Assembly: GCF_002356355.1 (NCBI RefSeq)
Contig: NZ_AP018052.1
Coordinates: forward strand, 1,674,001 to 1,738,000
From: Thiohalobacter thiocyanaticus
GTDB lineage: Bacteria; Pseudomonadota; Gammaproteobacteria; Thiohalobacterales; Thiohalobacteraceae
DNA length: 64,000 nt
Reading direction: 5' to 3'
Position 1 is the first letter of the stretch; every line of letters starts with the position of its first letter. A program made the translations under genes and the position numbers. The notes beneath the pieces are model-generated. The model was not told where the DNA came from and ran no database searches. It saw only the letters and a list, made by a program, of their open reading frames with translations. Shown piece by piece: positions 17,561-56,585 of this stretch.

Positions 17561-17588
17561 ATAAAAAAGGCCCCGCCATGGCGGGGCC
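17561..17588 (-). terminator. Rho-independent terminator for the cytochrome c genes
   Basis: A perfect self-complementary stem, GGCCCCGCC / GGCGGGGCC (17569-17588), is flanked on the plus strand by a run of A (17563-17568). It therefore works as a T-tailed terminator on the minus strand, just past the cytochrome c stop at 17613. It may also help end the plus-strand DUF1269 transcript. Confidence 0.85.
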
Positions 17589-17612
17589 CCGTCGGGTGCG
17601 GCCGAGCCGGGA

Positions 17613-49412: not shown

Positions 49413-49799
49413 TCACGCGGTCGCCGCCAGCTGCGCATCGAGTCCGGCACGGATGCGCTGCTTGAGCGCGGCCAGGTCGCGGCAGGCAGCGATGGCCTGG
49501 CGGTCCAGCAGCAGTTCGGGGCCGTCGCCGGTATCCAGCAGCACGGCCGGCGGTTGCAATTCCGCCCCGCCGTGGCGGGCCCGGTATTCATCCCGGTGCA
49601 GGAATTCCTGCTCGAGCGGCAGCGATTCCAGGAAGGCCACCCACTCCTTGCGGATCCGGAAATGCCCGTGGGTCAGGGTGCACAGGTCGCAGGAATAGGT
49701 CTGCGGCGACAGGATCTTGTGCGCGATGTCGGTGGCGGTGTTGAACAGGCCGCTGTCGGCGTTGTAGACGAAGATCAGTTTGTCGGCTGAGTGATGCAT
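49413..49799 (-). CDS. Conserved CxxC protein (YNADSG family), unknown function
   Basis: 128 residues, no signal peptide. The opening 'LIFVYNADSGLFNTATDIAH' and 'ILSPQTYSCDLCTLTHGHFR' carry a conserved 'YNA(D/N)SG' strand and a C-X2-C motif that I know from scattered small proteobacterial proteins of unknown function. The rest is mixed alpha-beta with an acidic loop ('LLDTGDGPELLL'). It follows the ArsR-rhodanese gene by 42 bases in the same direction, so it is likely in the same transcript. A thiol or metal redox role would suit the context but is not shown. Confidence 0.72.
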   Translation of the reverse strand: MHHSADKLIFVYNADSGLFNTATDIAHKILSPQTYSCDLCTLTHGHFRIRKEWVAFLESLPLEQEFLHRDEYRARHGGAELQPPAVLLDTGDGPELLLDRQAIAACRDLAALKQRIRAGLDAQLAATA

Positions 49800-49841: not shown

Positions 49842-50507
49842 TCAGTGCCGGGTTTCCTCCACCGGCAGACCGGCACTGCGCCATTCGGGATAGCCTTCCT
49901 CCAGCCGCCGGGCCTGGTAGCCGCGCCGGCGCAACTCGGCCACGGCGTCGTAGGAGAGCACGCAGTAGGGACCGCGGCAGTAGGCGATGACTTCCCGGTC
50001 AGCGGGGAGGGCGGCGAGTTGCTTTTCCAGCGAGTCCAGGGGGATATTGACCGCGCCTGGAAGATGGCCGGCCGCATATTCCTCCTCGGGCCGTACATCC
50101 AGCACAGTGACCTCGCCGCGTTTCAGCCGCTTCATGAGTTCCTGTGCCGCGACCGGTTCCATGCTGTCCTTGACGGTGAGATAGGTATCGACCAGCTGGT
50201 CGATCTCGGCCAGGTGGCGGTTGGCCACACGGCGCATGGCGTCCAGCAGCGCGACCACGTCCTCGCCGGAGAGCCTGTAGTAGATGCGCTGGCCTTCACG
50301 GCGGGTTTCCACCAGCCCGGCCTGGCGCAGTTGCTGCAGGTGCTGCGAGGTGTTGGCCACGCTGAGACCCGCGACCTGCGCCAGTGCCTCCACGCTGCGC
50401 TCGCCCTGGCCCAGGTATTCAATCAGGGCCAGGCGGTGGGCGTTGCCCAGGACCTTGCCGACGCGGGCGAACTGGGTGAACAGGGCATGTTTGACGTTGA
50501 AGCTCAT
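49842..50507 (-). CDS. ArsR-family regulator fused to a rhodanese domain
   Basis: 221 residues. The N-terminal winged helix has 'FNVKHALFTQFARVGKVLGN', 'EALAQVAGLSVANTSQHLQQ' and 'LRQAGLVETRREGQRIYYRL', typical of ArsR/SmtB repressors. A C-terminal rhodanese domain begins 'VTVLDVRPEEEYAAGHLPGA', with the active cysteine in 'AYCRGPYCVLSYDAVAEL'. Such fusions are annotated as sulfur- or arsenic-responsive regulators (compare BigR/SqrR-type persulfide sensors). It is divergent from the desaturase-TVP38-ArsS operon and an AT-rich palindrome sits between. It probably represses both itself and that operon; the inducer is not known. Confidence 0.9.
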   Translation of the reverse strand: MSFNVKHALFTQFARVGKVLGNAHRLALIEYLGQGERSVEALAQVAGLSVANTSQHLQQLRQAGLVETRREGQRIYYRLSGEDVVALLDAMRRVANRHLAEIDQLVDTYLTVKDSMEPVAAQELMKRLKRGEVTVLDVRPEEEYAAGHLPGAVNIPLDSLEKQLAALPADREVIAYCRGPYCVLSYDAVAELRRRGYQARRLEEGYPEWRSAGLPVEETRH

Positions 50508-50535
50508 TGACGCGATCCCGGGTGGCGTATATTGT

Positions 50536-50555
50536 ATTCAATAGATCAATTGAAT
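50536..50555. promoter_or_regulatory. Operator candidate for the ArsR-rhodanese regulator
   Basis: ATTCAAT (50536-50542) and ATTGAAT (50549-50555) are perfect inverted arms with a six-base spacer, embedded in AT-rich flanks ('TATATTG' and 'AATATTA'). It lies 29 bases upstream of the regulator's start and about 55 bases before the divergent gene. ArsR-family operators commonly have this AT-rich, roughly 12-2-12 palindromic form. Confidence 0.65.
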
Positions 50556-50609
50556 AATATTACCAGAATATCTCCGGCGCCGGCCGGATGCAAGCGAGAG
50601 GATCGGACC

Positions 50610-51467
50610 ATGGCAGGCGAAAGCTGGATACTGGCCTACGAGGCGCAGATACGCCTCGGGTTCTTCGTCGGTGTGTTCGCTTTGATGGCGCTGTGGGAAA
50701 TTCTGGCCCCGCGGCGCATGCCCGGCCACAGCAAATCGGTGCGCTGGTCCAACAATCTGGGTCTGGTGGTGCTCAACACGGTGCTGTTGCGGCTGGTGTT
50801 CCCGGCCGCGGCCGTGGGCATGGCGGCCTTCGCCCAGGCCCAGGGCTGGGGCATGTTCAATTATCTGGAGGTTCCCTTCTGGCTGGCAGTGCTGGCCTCG
50901 GTGGTGGCGCTGGATTTCTTCATCTGGCTGCAGCATGTGATGGTGCATGCCGTCCCGGCGCTGTGGCGCCTGCACCGGGTGCATCATGCCGATCTGGACT
51001 ATGACGTCACCACCGGCCTGCGCTTCCATCCGCTGGAGATCCTGCTGTCCATGCTGATCAAGTTCGGCGTGATCGTCGTGCTGGGTCCGCCGGTCCTGGC
51101 CGTGGTGCTGTTCGAGGTGCTGCTCAACGCCACCTCCATGTTCAATCACGGCAATGTGCGCATCCCGGTTGCGCTGGACCGGGCACTGCGCTGGTTCGTG
51201 GTTACGCCGGACATGCACCGGGTGCATCATTCGATCGAGGACGACGAGACCAACAGCAACTTCGGCTTCAACCTGCCCTGGTGGGACCGGCTGCTGGGCA
51301 CCTACCGCGACCAGCCGCGCGCCGGCCACGAGGGCATGACCATCGGTATCCGCACCTTCCGCGAGGACAAATGGTGCAGCTGGCTGCCGGGGCTGCTGAG
51401 CATTCCCTTCAGCCGCGGCACTGCCGGCTATGCCATCAACCGGCGCAAGTGGGGGGAGGGCGAATGA
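50610..51467 (+). CDS. Sterol desaturase/fatty acid hydroxylase family protein
   Basis: 285 residues from the ATG at 50610 with a GAGAGG site; the frame continues upstream across the operator and is not used. Four or five membrane helices are present. Di-iron His motifs are 'FIWLQHVMVH', 'WRLHRVHHADLDYDVTTGLR', 'ATSMFNHGNV' and 'DMHRVHHSIEDDETNSNFGF', as in the sterol desaturase/fatty acid hydroxylase superfamily. It would hydroxylate or desaturate a membrane lipid or other hydrophobic substrate. It opens the plus-strand operon; a 4-base overlap with the TVP38 gene couples them. Confidence 0.9.
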   Translation: MAGESWILAYEAQIRLGFFVGVFALMALWEILAPRRMPGHSKSVRWSNNLGLVVLNTVLLRLVFPAAAVGMAAFAQAQGWGMFNYLEVPFWLAVLASVVALDFFIWLQHVMVHAVPALWRLHRVHHADLDYDVTTGLRFHPLEILLSMLIKFGVIVVLGPPVLAVVLFEVLLNATSMFNHGNVRIPVALDRALRWFVVTPDMHRVHHSIEDDETNSNFGFNLPWWDRLLGTYRDQPRAGHEGMTIGIRTFREDKWCSWLPGLLSIPFSRGTAGYAINRRKWGEGE

Positions 51468-52426
51468 AGTCCACCGGCCGTCTCCTGCTGCTGGCGTTGC
51501 TGGCAGCCGGCATTGCCCTGGCAGTGATCTACCGCGACCGCTTCGATGTGGCCGCGCTGGAGGCCTGGATCGGCGAGGCCGGAGCGGTCGCGCCGCTGGC
51601 CTTCATGGCCCTGTATGCCATCGCCGCGGTGCTGTTCCTGCCCGGCTCGGTGATGACCCTGGCCGGCGGCGCCCTGTTCGGGCCGGTGCTGGGCACCTTC
51701 TACAACCTGACCGGCGCCACCCTGGGCGCGGCCCTGGCCTTCCTGGTGGCACGCTACCTGGCCTCGGACTGGGTGGCGCGGCGCACCGGCGGCCGGCTGA
51801 AGCAGTTGATCCAGGGCGTGGAGGCCGAGGGCTGGCGCTTCGTCGCCTTCGTGCGCCTGGTGCCGCTGTTTCCCTTCAACCTGCTCAACTACGCCCTGGG
51901 GCTGACCCGCATCCGGTTCCTGCATTACCTCATTGCCACCTGGATCTGCATGCTGCCGGGCGCGCTGGCCTATACCTACCTCGGCTATGCCGGGCGCGAG
52001 GCGGTGGCCGGCGGCGAGGGCCTGATCCAGAAGGGGCTGCTGGCACTGGCGCTGCTGGCGGTGGTGGCCTTCCTGCCGCGGCTGATCGCCATCATCCGCA
52101 AGGGCAAACTGCTGCCCACGGATGAACTCAAGCGACGGCTGGATGCCGGAGAGGATCTGCTGCTGCTGGATGTGCGCAAACCGGAGGATTATCACGGTGA
52201 GCTGGGCCACATCTCCGGTGCGGTGAATATCCCGCTGGAGGAACTGCCGCAGCGTCTGGATGAGCTCGGTGAGTACCAGGAGCGCCCGGTGGCGACCGTG
52301 TGTCGCACCGACCGCATGTCGGCCGCCGCGGCCCGGCTGCTGGTCCAGCAGGGGTTTGCCGATGTGCATGTGGTGCGCAAGGGCATGGTGAGCTGGAATC
52401 AGCAGGGTTATCCTGTGGAGAAGTGA
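51464..52426 (+). CDS. TVP38/TMEM64 (DedA-like) membrane protein fused to a rhodanese domain
   Basis: 320 residues from the ATG at 51464, overlapping the previous stop. Residues 1-210 are the TVP38/TMEM64 membrane domain: 'AVLFLPGSVMTLAGGALFGP', 'FVAFVRLVPLFPFNLLNYAL' (the conserved P-x-x-P-x-x-L-x-N loop) and 'TYLGYAGREA'. Residues ~220-318 are a cytoplasmic rhodanese domain ('LLLLDVRKPEDYHGELGHIS', with cysteine in 'VATVCRTDRMSAAAARLL'). TVP38 proteins are thought to be involved in lipid scrambling or membrane transport. A fused sulfurtransferase suggests handling of sulfane sulfur at the membrane. A diverged repeat separates it from arsS. Confidence 0.9.
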   Translation: MKSTGRLLLLALLAAGIALAVIYRDRFDVAALEAWIGEAGAVAPLAFMALYAIAAVLFLPGSVMTLAGGALFGPVLGTFYNLTGATLGAALAFLVARYLASDWVARRTGGRLKQLIQGVEAEGWRFVAFVRLVPLFPFNLLNYALGLTRIRFLHYLIATWICMLPGALAYTYLGYAGREAVAGGEGLIQKGLLALALLAVVAFLPRLIAIIRKGKLLPTDELKRRLDAGEDLLLLDVRKPEDYHGELGHISGAVNIPLEELPQRLDELGEYQERPVATVCRTDRMSAAAARLLVQQGFADVHVVRKGMVSWNQQGYPVEK

Positions 52427-52440
52427 TGGCTGGTCCATAT

Positions 52441-52470
52441 GAAATTGTCACGTTGCTCTCGCAATGACAG
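52441..52470. repeat. Partial family C repeat, inverted
   Basis: 'GAAATTGTCACGTTGCTCTC' then 'GCAATGACAG' is the reverse complement of the family C start ('CTGTCATTGCGAGAG...'). It directly adjoins the family B repeat on the right. Confidence 0.5.
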
Positions 52471-52556
52471 CATGTAGGTCGGGTTAGCGAAGCGTAACCC
52501 GACAACCGGCGAGATGTGTTGGGTTACGACGCTGCGCGTCTAACCCAACCTGCATG
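52471..52556. repeat. Palindromic repeat, family B
   Basis: 'CATGTAGGTCGGGTTAGCGA' at the left pairs with 'TAACCCAACCTGCATG' at the right; the centre has two internal hairpins. It shares the '...GCGTAACCC' / 'GGGTTACG...' text with the family B copies at 24842-24910 and 55139-55224. It lies between the TVP38-rhodanese stop and the arsS start. Confidence 0.75.
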
Positions 52557-52635
52557 GATGTATAGAGACGGTGGCACTTTACTGACAATCCACTGTCCAA
52601 CACGCAAACTCATAGCCTTCAGGAGTCCGACCGGC

Positions 52636-53595
52636 ATGCACGCCACCCTGCCATTACTGCGCGAAACAGATTTCCCGCCCATCCGCCGCGGCCCGCTGCA
52701 GACCCTGCAGGTCAATCTCGGCTACAAGTGCAACCAGAGTTGTCTGCACTGTCATGTGAATGCCGGTCCCACCCGCAGCGAGATGATGGACGGTACCACT
52801 CTGCAGATGGTGGTGGCCTTCCTGCAGGCCAGCGGCGTGCGGCAGCTGGATCTGACCGGCGGCGCACCCGAACTGCATCCCCGCTTCCGCGAACTGGTCA
52901 GTGTGGCACGCGCGCTGGAGGTGGAGGTCATCGACCGCTGCAACCTCACCATCCTGGAGGAGCCCGGCCAGGAGGATCTGGCCGACTTCCTGGCCGAACA
53001 CCGGGTCGGCATCATCGCCTCGCTGCCCTGCTATCTGGAAGAGAACGTGGAAAACCAGCGCGGCAAGGGCGTGTATGGCGCCAGCATCCGCGGCCTGCGG
53101 CGGTTGAACGCCCTGGGCTACGGGCAGCCCGACAGCGGGCTGGAACTCAATCTGATGTACAACCCGGTCGGTCCCTGGCTGCCACCGCCGCAGGCCGGTC
53201 TGGAGGCCGATTACCGGCGCGAACTGGCTGAACGCGAGGGCGTGGTATTCAACCGCCTGTATGCGCTGACCAACATGCCCATCGCCCGCTTCGGCAGCAC
53301 CCTGATCTCGCATGACGGGTTCGAGGATTACATGGCCCTGCTCAAGTCGGCGCACTGTCCGGACAACCTGAATACGGTGATGTGCCGGAGTCTGATCAGC
53401 GTCGACTGGCAGGGTTACGTCTACGACTGCGATTTCAACCAGATGCTCGGGCTCGCCCTGGGAGACGATCGCCCGACCCATCTGTCCGAACTGATCGGCC
53501 GGGACCTTGACGCCCGCCCCATTGCCGTGGCCGATCACTGCTATGGCTGCACGGCAGGGCAGGGCAGCAGCTGCGGCGGGGCGCTGGGTGGCTGA
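52636..53595 (+). CDS. arsS: Radical SAM arsenosugar biosynthesis protein ArsS
   Basis: 319 residues from the ATG at 52636 with an AGGAG site ten bases ahead; the upstream open frame runs through a repeat. The radical SAM cluster motif CX3CX2C is Cys32, Cys36, Cys39 in 'NLGYKCNQSCLHCHVNAG'. 'DLTGGAPELHPRFRELVSVA' and 'DRCNLTILEEPGQEDLADFL' are the SAM and substrate segments. The C-terminus has the DUF3641 cysteines ('CYGCTAGQGSSCGG'). ArsS moves a deoxyadenosyl group to dimethylarsinous acid, giving the nucleoside precursor of arsenosugars. The next two glycosyltransferases and arsM complete the pathway. Confidence 0.95.
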   Translation: MHATLPLLRETDFPPIRRGPLQTLQVNLGYKCNQSCLHCHVNAGPTRSEMMDGTTLQMVVAFLQASGVRQLDLTGGAPELHPRFRELVSVARALEVEVIDRCNLTILEEPGQEDLADFLAEHRVGIIASLPCYLEENVENQRGKGVYGASIRGLRRLNALGYGQPDSGLELNLMYNPVGPWLPPPQAGLEADYRRELAEREGVVFNRLYALTNMPIARFGSTLISHDGFEDYMALLKSAHCPDNLNTVMCRSLISVDWQGYVYDCDFNQMLGLALGDDRPTHLSELIGRDLDARPIAVADHCYGCTAGQGSSCGGALGG

Positions 53596-54271
53596 ACGGC
53601 TGTCCATCATCATCCCGGCCCTGAACGAGGCCGGGGGTATCGTCGGTCTGCTCGATGCGCTGCAGCCGCTGCGTGGGCAGGGCCATGAGGTCATACTGGT
53701 CGACGGCGGCAGTCAGGATGCCACGCTCGAACTGGCCCGCCCGTATATCGATGCGGCGCTGCAGAGCGCCCCGGGCCGGGCGCGGCAGATGAACGCCGGT
53801 GCGCGGGCGGCGGGCGGCGATATTCTCTGGTTCGTGCATGCGGATACCCGGCTCGGTCATGGGCATGCCGCGGCGCTGCTGCAGGCAATGCAAGCCGATC
53901 CGGACCGGGCGTGGGGACGATTCGATGTGCGCATCAACGGCCGTGCCCCTCTGCTGGGGTGGGTGGCCCGGATGATGAATCTGCGCTCGCGCCTGACCGG
54001 CATTGCCACCGGCGATCAGGGCATCTTTGTGCGACGCGCTGCGTTTCTGGACATCGGCGGCTATGCCGATCAGCCGCTGATGGAGGACATCGAACTGAGC
54101 CGGGCGCTTAAACGCATCAGTCCGCCGCTGTGCCTGCGTCAGTGCATCGAAACCTCCGGCCGGCGCTGGGAGCAGGGCGGAGTGGTCCGCATCATCCTGC
54201 TGATGTGGAGCCTGCGTCTGGGTTATTTCCTGGGCCTGGCGCCCGAGCGCCTGGCCCGGCTTTACACTTGA
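53588..54271 (+). CDS. TIGR04283-type arsenosugar glycosyltransferase
   Basis: 227 residues from the GTG at 53588, which overlaps the arsS stop by 8 bases. The frame is open further upstream inside arsS. GT-A motifs: 'RLSIIIPALNEAGGIVGLLD', 'EVILVDGGSQDATLELARPY', 'GDILWFVHADTRL' (DXD-like HAD) and 'IATGDQGIFVRRAAFLDIGG'. This is the family 2 glycosyltransferase that consistently accompanies arsS. It is thought to work on the deoxyadenosyl-arsenic intermediate or an acceptor in arsenosugar synthesis. Confidence 0.92.
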   Translation: MAERLSIIIPALNEAGGIVGLLDALQPLRGQGHEVILVDGGSQDATLELARPYIDAALQSAPGRARQMNAGARAAGGDILWFVHADTRLGHGHAAALLQAMQADPDRAWGRFDVRINGRAPLLGWVARMMNLRSRLTGIATGDQGIFVRRAAFLDIGGYADQPLMEDIELSRALKRISPPLCLRQCIETSGRRWEQGGVVRIILLMWSLRLGYFLGLAPERLARLYT

Positions 54272-54475: not shown

Positions 54476-55129
54476 ATGAGTCGTACAGCCAGATACCCGG
54501 GTGCCCGCCTGCTGCTGTTCGCACGCAGCCCGGTGCGCGGCCGGGTCAAGCGCCGCCTGGCGGCCGAGATGGGCGAACAGGCGGCCTTTGACATTCATTG
54601 CGCCATGACCGCGTACCTGGCCGGCATGGCAGGCGGGGCTGCCCTGATGCCGGCCTGCCTGTATGCCTGGCCCGATGTCGATTCACCCTGGCTGCAGAAC
54701 CTGGCCGCACGTCATGCCCTGCAACTCCGGGCGCAGCAGGGCAGTGACCTGGGCGAGCGCATGGGCAATGCCCTGGCGGCCGAACTGCGACACGCCGATT
54801 TCGCGATCCTGATCGGCAGCGACTGCCCCGGTATCGATCCGGCCTATATTGAAGCTGCCGCCGCGCGGCTGCAGGCGGGCGTGCCCTGGGTGTTCGGACC
54901 GGCCATCGACGGTGGCTACGGTCTGGTGGGTACCTGCCGTGCCGATCCGGCGCCCTTCCGGAATATCGACTGGGGTACGGCAGAAGTCATGGCGCAGACC
55001 CGCGACCGCTGCCGCGCAGCCGGCCTGGCGTGGGAGGAGTTGGATGCATTGTATGATATCGATACCCGTGAGGACTGGCTGCGGCTGCAGCGCGACAGGC
55101 CGGAATTGTGCGGAAATCTGGTCTGGTAA
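54476..55129 (+). CDS. TIGR04282-type arsenosugar glycosyltransferase (cofC/GT-A-like)
   Basis: 217 residues. The N-terminal 'RLLLFARSPVRGRVKRRLAA' is the nucleotide-sugar/nucleotidyltransferase-like loop, 'FAILIGSDCPGIDPAYIEAA' holds the acidic DCP motif, and 'PAIDGGYGLVGTCRADPAPF' the substrate segment. This matches the TIGR04282 family, which sits beside arsS and TIGR04283 in arsenosugar loci. It may prepare or transfer the sugar part; the exact split with the preceding enzyme is not established. It has no close ribosome site and is separated from its neighbours by repeats. Confidence 0.9.
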   Translation: MSRTARYPGARLLLFARSPVRGRVKRRLAAEMGEQAAFDIHCAMTAYLAGMAGGAALMPACLYAWPDVDSPWLQNLAARHALQLRAQQGSDLGERMGNALAAELRHADFAILIGSDCPGIDPAYIEAAAARLQAGVPWVFGPAIDGGYGLVGTCRADPAPFRNIDWGTAEVMAQTRDRCRAAGLAWEELDALYDIDTREDWLRLQRDRPELCGNLVW

Positions 55130-55224: not shown

Positions 55225-55255
55225 ATTCTGTTAATACCGAACAGGAGTAATGGCC

Positions 55256-56086
55256 ATGAGCGAACAACGATCCGATGATATCCGCAACGCCGTGCGCAGC
55301 AGCTATGCCGCCGTGGCCGAGGCCAGCGAGGCCGGCGACTGCTGCGGGGTGGAGTCGAGCTGCTGCGGGGTGTCCGACGATGCCGCCATCAATGCCCTGA
55401 TCTCGACCCGACTGGGCTACAGTCAGGCCGACCTCGAGAGCGTCCCGGAAGGCGCGGACATGGGCCTGGGCTGCGGCAACCCGCGCGCCATCGCCAGTCT
55501 GCAGCCGGGCGAAACGGTACTGGACCTGGGCAGCGGCGGCGGCTTCGATGCCTTTCTGGCCGCGGCCGAGGTCGGTGCCTCCGGCCGGGTGATCGGCGTG
55601 GACATGACGCCCGAGATGCTGGCCAAGGCGCGCGCCAATGCCCGCAAGGGCAACTATTCGCAGGTCGAATTCCGCCTCGGCGAGATCGAGCACCTGCCGG
55701 TGAGTGATGGCAGCGTCGATGTCATCATCTCCAACTGCGTGATCAACCTGTCACCGGACAAGGCGCAGGTCTTTCGCGAGGCCTTCCGGGTGCTGAGGCC
55801 GGGCGGGCGTCTGGCCATCTCCGACGTGGTGGCCGGCACCGAGTTGCCGGAGGCGATGCAACAGGATCTGCAGCTGCACTCGGCCTGTGTGTCCGGCGCC
55901 TCCACCGCCGCGGAACTGACCGCGATACTGGCGGCGGCGGGTTTCGCCGACATCCGCATCGAGCCGAAGGACGCGTCGCGCGAGTTCATCCGCGACTGGG
56001 TGCCCGGCAGCAGGGTGGAGGACTATGTGCTGTCCGCGACCATCGAGGCAGTCAAGCCCCAGGCCGGACAGGTGAAGGGATCTTGA
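55256..56086 (+). CDS. arsM: Arsenite S-adenosylmethionine methyltransferase ArsM
   Basis: 276 residues from the ATG at 55256; an ATG at 55250 lies too close to the AGGAG site. The N-terminus has cysteine pairs 'GDCCGVESSCCGVSDD'. The arsenic ligands are Cys73 ('MGLGCGNPRAI'), Cys161 ('SNCVINLSPDK') and Cys211 ('LHSACVSGASTA'), matching the three conserved cysteines of algal ArsM. The SAM motif is 'VLDLGSGGGFDAFLAA'. It methylates arsenite stepwise to mono- and dimethylated forms, the substrate ArsS then uses. It closes the arsenosugar block. Confidence 0.96.
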   Translation: MSEQRSDDIRNAVRSSYAAVAEASEAGDCCGVESSCCGVSDDAAINALISTRLGYSQADLESVPEGADMGLGCGNPRAIASLQPGETVLDLGSGGGFDAFLAAAEVGASGRVIGVDMTPEMLAKARANARKGNYSQVEFRLGEIEHLPVSDGSVDVIISNCVINLSPDKAQVFREAFRVLRPGGRLAISDVVAGTELPEAMQQDLQLHSACVSGASTAAELTAILAAAGFADIRIEPKDASREFIRDWVPGSRVEDYVLSATIEAVKPQAGQVKGS

Positions 56087-56144: not shown

Positions 56145-56585
56145 ATGCCTGAAGCACTGCATCTCGTCTGTCCGCATTGCCAATCGGTCAATCGCATCCC
56201 GTCCATGCGCCTGGGCGAGGGGCCCAAATGCGGTAAATGCCACCGGCCGCTGTTCACCGGCGAACCGGTCGACTTGACCCAGGCCGGATTCCAGAAGCAG
56301 TTCGAACGCAGCGACATCCCGCTGCTGGTCGATTTCTGGGCCCCCTGGTGCGGGCCGTGCAAGATGATGGCGCCGCAGTTCACCCAGGCCGCGCGGCAGC
56401 TCGAACCGCAGCTGCGGCTGGCCAAGGTCAACACCGAGGTCGAGCAGTCACTGGCCGCGCATTTCGGCATCCGCAGCATTCCCACCCTGGCCCTGTTCGC
56501 CCGGGGCCGCGAACTGGCCCGCCAGCCCGGCGCGATGGGCGCGGCCGATATCGTGCGCTGGGTGAAACACCACCTCCCCCGCTGA
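56145..56585 (+). CDS. trxC: Thioredoxin 2 (TrxC)
   Basis: 146 residues. The N-terminal zinc-binding part has 'LVCPHCQSVNRIP' and 'PKCGKCHRPLF' (two CXXC pairs). The thioredoxin domain has the active site 'WAPWCGPCKM' and the cis-Pro 'RSIPTLALF'. It is the cytoplasmic zinc-containing thioredoxin, usually peroxide-induced. It comes 58 bases after arsM on the same strand and could supply reducing power to ArsM, which needs thioredoxin or glutathione. Confidence 0.95.
   Translation: MPEALHLVCPHCQSVNRIPSMRLGEGPKCGKCHRPLFTGEPVDLTQAGFQKQFERSDIPLLVDFWAPWCGPCKMMAPQFTQAARQLEPQLRLAKVNTEVEQSLAAHFGIRSIPTLALFARGRELARQPGAMGAADIVRWVKHHLPR

Follow-up and report, generated by a model that had tools for sequence, protein, structure and literature searches.

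The window (the whole 64,000 nt stretch that was analysed) carries, on the minus strand at 49842–50507, a gene for an ArsR-family regulator of 221 aa with a C-terminal rhodanese domain. Its ArsR/SmtB winged helix scores above the curated cut-offs of PF01022 (36.8 bits, cut-off 22) and NF033788 (82 bits, cut-off 55), and the rhodanese part above that of PF00581 (70.7 bits, cut-off 22.2). The only cysteines of the protein are C177, in the active-site loop of the rhodanese (YCRGPYC), and C182 in the same loop. A cysteine metal or metalloid site in the DNA-binding domain is typical of ArsR and CadC; it is absent from the DNA-binding domain of this regulator. An AlphaFold model of the protein (mean pLDDT 79, pTM 0.56) does not give a credible arrangement of the domains. 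Just downstream of the regulator, a 128 aa protein (49413–49799) has no Pfam or NCBIfam match, and tblastn relatives of it were found in 9 of the 80 named loci described below.

The divergent operon lies on the plus strand. It begins with a membrane protein of the fatty-acid hydroxylase/sterol desaturase family (50610–51467; PF04116, 96.8 bits), the stop of which is overlapped by the start of a VTT (TVP38/DedA-like) membrane protein with a C-terminal rhodanese (51464–52426; PF09335, 98.2 bits; PF00581, 66.9 bits). These are followed by the arsenosugar radical SAM enzyme ArsS (52636–53595; TIGR04167, 446.8 bits, cut-off 300), two arsenosugar glycosyltransferases (TIGR04283 at 53507–54271, 267.8 bits, cut-off 182; TIGR04282 at 54476–55129, 171.7 bits, cut-off 134), an ArsM-type arsenite methyltransferase (55250–56086; NF008823, 368.6 bits, cut-off 263) and Thioredoxin 2 (TrxC, 56145–56585; NF008229, 151.3 bits, cut-off 125), which is a possible end of the operon. 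All four members expected of an arsenosugar cluster (ArsS, TIGR04283, TIGR04282 and ArsM) are thus present above cut-off. The arsS open reading frame opens at a GTG (52516), and the ATG at 52636 matches, by eye, the start in congeners. The chemistry of ArsS has reportedly been described by Cheng et al. in 2021.

A simple scan of the gap before arsS (52427–52635) found no promoter- or terminator-like site, and read-through into arsS from the upstream genes is plausible. The same gap holds two REP-like hairpins at 52477–52549 (GGTCGGGTTAGCGAAGCGTAACCCGAC; the second with TGGGTTACGACGC and GCGTCTAACCCA); among congeners, it carries another insert in G001 and is far shorter in G002. An in-frame TGA in the matches raised the question of selenocysteine in the VTT-rhodanese protein, which was rejected: the active-site codon is TGC or TGT in 42 of 43 rows, the exception being TCA in the second L090 row, with two of the rows representing the regulator's own loop.

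The two start codons are separated by 102 bp (50508–50609), and within this gap ATTCAAT-AGATCA-ATTGAAT was confirmed at 50536–50555 by reading the letters of the window. The preliminary description, which had reported this gap and an AT-rich ATTCAAT-N6-ATTGAAT site in GC-rich DNA, was accurate in each respect, except that the site is slightly longer. With one more pair it forms a gapless inverted repeat of 22 bp at 50535–50556 (TATTCAATAGATCAATTGAATA), 10 of 11 pairs matching. The GC content falls from 64.6% in the window to 50% in the intergenic gap and 18% in the palindrome. Among the approximately 64,000 even-centred 22-mers of the window only two pair at 10/11, and the second (17568–17589) is GC-rich. 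At up to three mismatches, ATTCAAT-N6-ATTGAAT occurs twice in the window against 0.68 expected, and 15 of 100 shuffles gave as many, so that the exact match alone is notable. Across the genome (3,233,441 bp) there is one exact copy and one copy with a single mismatch; with up to three mismatches allowed, each strand has 62 matches, compared to 17 when the pattern is reversed.

The predicted operon promoter (50507–50535, plus strand) consists of a −35 TTGACG (50507–50512), a 17 nt spacer and a −10 TATTGT (50530–50535), and scores 9/12 in a promoter scan; its transcript is expected to start near 50542, inside the palindrome. The predicted arsR promoter on the minus strand (50565–50593; −35 TTGCAT at 50593–50588, 17 nt spacer, −10 TATTCT at 50570–50565) is weak relative to consensus, its −35 matching at 3/6 positions, and was missed by the scan; its transcript is expected to start near 50558, beside the palindrome. 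Because the expected starts fall within the palindrome or beside it, a dimer bound there would block the two promoters, and this anatomy supports the earlier proposal that a single dimer could control both directions.

Conservation and covariation of the site

A first set of relatives comprised 18 loci with a full-length relative (L009–L026), from 56 genomes searched including this one, and 80 named loci of 56–95% identity, mainly from proteobacterial MAGs. Together with the window these made 99 regions, 97 of them with usable upstream sequence (L059, with 47 nt upstream, and L114, which had no start, were dropped), and the 120 nt before arsR were searched. With no consensus assumed, a 22 bp palindrome of at least 9/11 pairs was found in 51 of the 97 upstream regions (shuffles 2.5%), including a few unlike this motif. 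After removal of four repeats, 93 regions remained, and the consensus TATTCAATNNATNNATTGAATA was found at no more than 3/18 mismatches in 64 of them, nine being perfect, compared to 0.04% of shuffles and none of 463 coding windows. This consensus was derived from the same first set that it was then counted in, a limitation that the second set does not share. For the latter, a further 57 regulators were taken from the class sample after the consensus had been fixed; 53 were kept (L226 was too short, and L221, L241 and L242 repeated the first set). Matches at up to three mismatches were found in 34 of the 53 upstream regions (shuffles 0.04%, coding windows 0/159). Regions lacking a site at this threshold number 29 in the first set and 19 in the second, and none was found at the SKHL locus L023. 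A lack of the palindrome at orthologous promoters had been named in the preliminary description as grounds for rejecting the operator; conservation was found in both sets, the independent one included.

A logo of the 74 distinct aligned sites shows ATTCAA and TTGAAT as near invariant, with a looser centre. The window site matches the consensus perfectly, and the sole other site listed in its own genome has three mismatches, so no second target with fewer than three was found there.

The facing promoters recur at these sites. On the arsR side, an opposite-strand TTGACA is exact in 60 of 74 sites (shuffles 2.7%) and matches at 5/6 or better in 69, of which 62 lie 36–45 nt from the palindrome centre. 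At many loci this operon −35 coincides with the start of the regulator gene, which reads ATGTCAA in 52 of 76 cases and GTGTCAA in four more. Ser-2 of the regulator is encoded by TCA in 65 of 77 genes, whereas this codon accounts for 73 of the 960 other serines (counted over 97 rows, four duplicates included), and in L060, L075, L077 and L108 the TTGACA element is kept although it lies outside the called arsR frame, both of which indicate that the −35 element is maintained at the DNA level. On the side away from arsR, 27 of the 74 sites have an exact TATAAT (shuffles 5%), mostly ending 24–29 nt from the centre; at 5/6 or better it is present in 47 of 74, but also in 42% of shuffles. The operon −10 is poor, with no more than 4/6 matches in 47 of 69 loci.

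Changes in the half-sites follow the recognition helix of the regulator. Residue 51 was compared in the second set, in loci with a site of up to five mismatches: alanine goes with A at base ±6, and T in both arms at this position was seen in none of 38 loci with Ala, compared to all four with Gly (ATTCTA), while C occupies both arms in the two loci with Arg (ATTCCA). The first-set Gly locus, L022, agrees, with T at ±6 (ATTCTAT). Gly is found in three genera and Arg in one, so the independent events are few. At residue 55, seven of eight loci with Lys carry C at ±4 on both sides, compared to none of 62 with Gln; the second set gave 1/1 and 0/40, respectively. Five of the eight Lys-55 loci read A(T/C)TCAAC in both arms. 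In a tree test, helix and base each require three changes on the best tree, with supported branches forcing one, and this second covariation is regarded as suggestive. Among more distant loci (22 of 24 read, all but L198 and L199; the L188 reading looks off frame), the family with the helix KLxSAHL shows A(T/C)TC(T/C)AA in each arm at 6 of 10 loci. Half-site changes that track the recognition helix are the trace expected of direct protein–DNA contact. The palindrome is very likely a true operator, and we put the probability that 50535–50556 is bound by the ArsR-rhodanese protein of 49842–50507 at roughly 0.87. The original proposal that the palindrome is the operator of this regulator is strongly supported in silico, including by the independent set.

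Proposed mechanism of repression and release

A homodimer of the regulator would bind 50535–50556 via its winged helices; the covariation suggests that base ±6 is read by residue 51 of the recognition helix. The arsR and operon promoters face each other, and one bound dimer would presumably shut both. The regulator would then be autorepressed and would also repress the desaturase/VTT-rhodanese operon, which at this locus has the arsenosugar genes attached. For release, the favoured route is that a sulfane-sulfur donor would place a persulfide on C177 of the rhodanese loop; C182 would then react with the C177 persulfide, changing the dimer so that the DNA is let go. Whether release takes this form we regard as an even bet.

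A persulfide inducer, as the preliminary description suggested, is plausible because there is no cysteine outside the rhodanese loop and because sulfur genes are among the neighbours. The motif YCRGxxC is present in all 97 relatives, partly by selection, as YCRGPxC was one of the two search patterns for the 80 named loci; its conservation in the 18 full-length loci (L009–L026) is free of this. Before the rhodanese part, 71 of the 97 relatives have no cysteine, 20 have one and 6 have two. The organism itself is probably a sulfur oxidiser, since its genome encodes SoxB and two DsrA proteins, all over cut-offs; the two dsrA genes are at C1:1380489–1381682 and 2037658–2038869.

Genes linked to the regulator and the nature of the inducer

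Across the 80 named loci, the most frequent neighbour is a desaturase, found divergent to the regulator in 58; a VTT protein is likewise divergent in 45. At least one of a multihaem cytochrome, an Fe-S flavoprotein, DsrE and TauE is found on the divergent side in 26. The multihaem cytochrome (e.g., L109:3092–4420), which has a weak likeness to hydrazine dehydrogenase, and the NapH-GltD-like Fe-S flavoprotein (e.g., L076:2–1960) are each on the divergent side in 15 of the 80 loci, and the two appear to make up an unnamed redox module. An arsS gene was counted in 10 of the 80, but the loci reach no more than 6 kb, so distant genes are undercounted. The reading of the arsenosugar genes as a rare add-on was dropped, as arsS lies 9–14 kb away in several genomes and the link recurs across the class; in G004, G006 and G010 it stands at the far end of a desaturase–VTT–Fe-S-flavoprotein cluster.

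The main alternative for the inducer retains the same operator and repressor but has trivalent arsenic (arsenite or a methylated arsenical) held by C177 and C182, a pair that, being five residues apart, could plausibly bind As(III). It would suit an operon that encodes ArsS, two arsenosugar glycosyltransferases and ArsM. A class-wide search of 369 genomes found the regulator in 94 (E ≤ 1e-40, L025 as query) and arsS in 181 (E ≤ 1e-80), with arsS in 70 of the 94 regulator genomes versus 111 of the 275 others (Fisher p 1e-8, kinship uncorrected), and this co-occurrence raised the odds of an arsenic inducer above our earlier, lower estimate. Of the 61 genomes that have both genes and a listed place for arsS, 22 carry it no more than 15 kb from the regulator, and in 19 of these 22 it is on the divergent side and oriented away from the regulator (the exceptions are G099, G131 and G245). 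In the second set, the site is also commoner in genomes with arsS (29/40) than in those without (5/13).

Other counts weigh against arsenic as the inducer. The regulator occurs without arsS in 24 of its 94 genomes, and the site is present in 35 of the 47 loci that have a divergent desaturase but lack arsS and arsM in a flank of up to 6 kb (arsS may lie further away). In eight genomes searched, arsS is separated from the regulator or sits on a different contig, and no site of up to three mismatches was found near it in any of the eight (G007, G011, G019, G044, G050, G053, G054 and G055; six of the eight are drafts). In the congener G002, a second perfect site (L165:4117–4138) lies 66 nt before a gene for a TauE/SafE exporter, about 1.97 Mb from the regulator, and the exporter gene is followed by one for a PLP enzyme of Cys/Met metabolism. 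The window's own genome has no close relative of this exporter, the best match being 37% identical over part of its length. In support of the operator, sites were also found before desaturase–VTT in G010 (perfect), before the desaturase in G011 and before VTT in G007 (three mismatches each). On balance, arsenic is an unlikely inducer, with perhaps somewhat better than one chance in four; the operator is common to this reading and the best explanation, so the two probabilities do not sum to one.

The desaturase/VTT-rhodanese pair thus appears to be the commonest target of the regulator and arsenosugar synthesis a recurrent one. The preliminary description had called the divergent genes an arsenosugar operon; this is correct for the genes here (ArsS, glycosyltransferases, ArsM), and across the class the link recurs without being constant. 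Its mechanism seems right in outline, with arsenosugar synthesis as a part that comes and goes.

It is very improbable that the palindrome serves some other regulator, of FNR/CRP type or an ArsR paralogue, and sits beside this gene incidentally. The genome does have further ArsR-type genes, and several families suit AT-rich palindromes, but in many families the site accompanies the ArsR-rhodanese gene, its half-sites vary with the recognition helix of that protein, and a single exact copy in the genome speaks against a global regulator. Least probable of all is an RNA hairpin in overlapping 5′ leaders, for although the repeat would be in both predicted transcripts, its stem is AT-rich, its perfect form has no loop, and the bases themselves are near invariant and change with the recognition helix.

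Under the favoured reading, a common fusion regulator gains both an operator and a simple code of recognition, in which residue 51 is matched to base ±6. Should the rhodanese domain prove to be the sensor, this would be another bacterial way to read persulfide, and would explain the repeated joining of arsenosugar genes to divergons with desaturase, VTT-rhodanese and sulfur genes.

Comparison with known ArsR-type regulators

The closest solved DNA-binding domain is that of Mb0332 of Mycobacterium bovis (2KKO, 3GW2), with 50% identity over about 95 residues. The structure covers the fragment 1–100 only. Mb0332 presumably corresponds to Rv0324, an ArsR-rhodanese protein, and we know of no operator for it. 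In the literature searched, no paper joined Rv0324 with rhodanese. NolR (4OMY, with oligo AT DNA, and 4OMZ) was also recovered in the fold match, its ArsR-type domain being 37–38% identical; the match has no rhodanese domain. Among the literature matches listed (titles and abstract openings, with subscription papers mostly outside), no description of an ArsR-rhodanese fusion regulator was found.

The conserved cysteines of the repressors sHdrR and SoxR are in the ArsR domain, and, unlike theirs, the ArsR domain of the window protein has no cysteine. As described in PMC12423496, sHdrR and SoxR of Hyphomicrobium denitrificans are ArsR-type repressors of sulfur genes that are thought to respond via a sulfur bridge between two conserved cysteines, and its authors link such regulators to rhodaneses and sulfite exporters. 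The rhodanese and exporter neighbours found here resemble those.

The regulator shares the ArsR-type winged helix with the SqrR/BigR/YgaV group, and the BigR family NF040642 is its second-best NCBIfam match, at 60.8 bits far below the curated cut-off of 155. PMC9774250 gives ATTC-N8-GAAT as the sequence bound by SqrR and YgaV; the ATTC/GAAT arms are common to both operators, whereas the spacing here is ATTC-N12-GAAT. The same source describes YgaV as autorepressing an operon with a rhodanese by binding over the promoter. At C1:296664–297418 (L002, L003), the genome analysed here also has another ArsR-type gene and, after it, one for a membrane-anchored rhodanese with a CRSGSRS loop; the layout is like that of E. 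coli ygaVP as outlined in that text (PMC9774250), and this is possibly a second sulfane-sulfur switch. SqrR and BigR have two conserved cysteines in the ArsR domain, compared to none in the window protein, and in the latter the rhodanese is fused to the regulator, unlike in SqrR, BigR and YgaV. Judged from its sequence features, the regulator probably works like this group without being a member of it. More tentatively, and with the odds leaning somewhat against it, it may represent a widespread second design of ArsR-type sulfane-sulfur repressor, in which the sensing cysteines have shifted out of the DNA-binding domain into a fused rhodanese, sulfur transfer is itself the signal, and the conserved operator between facing promoters brings arsenosugar synthesis under persulfide control.
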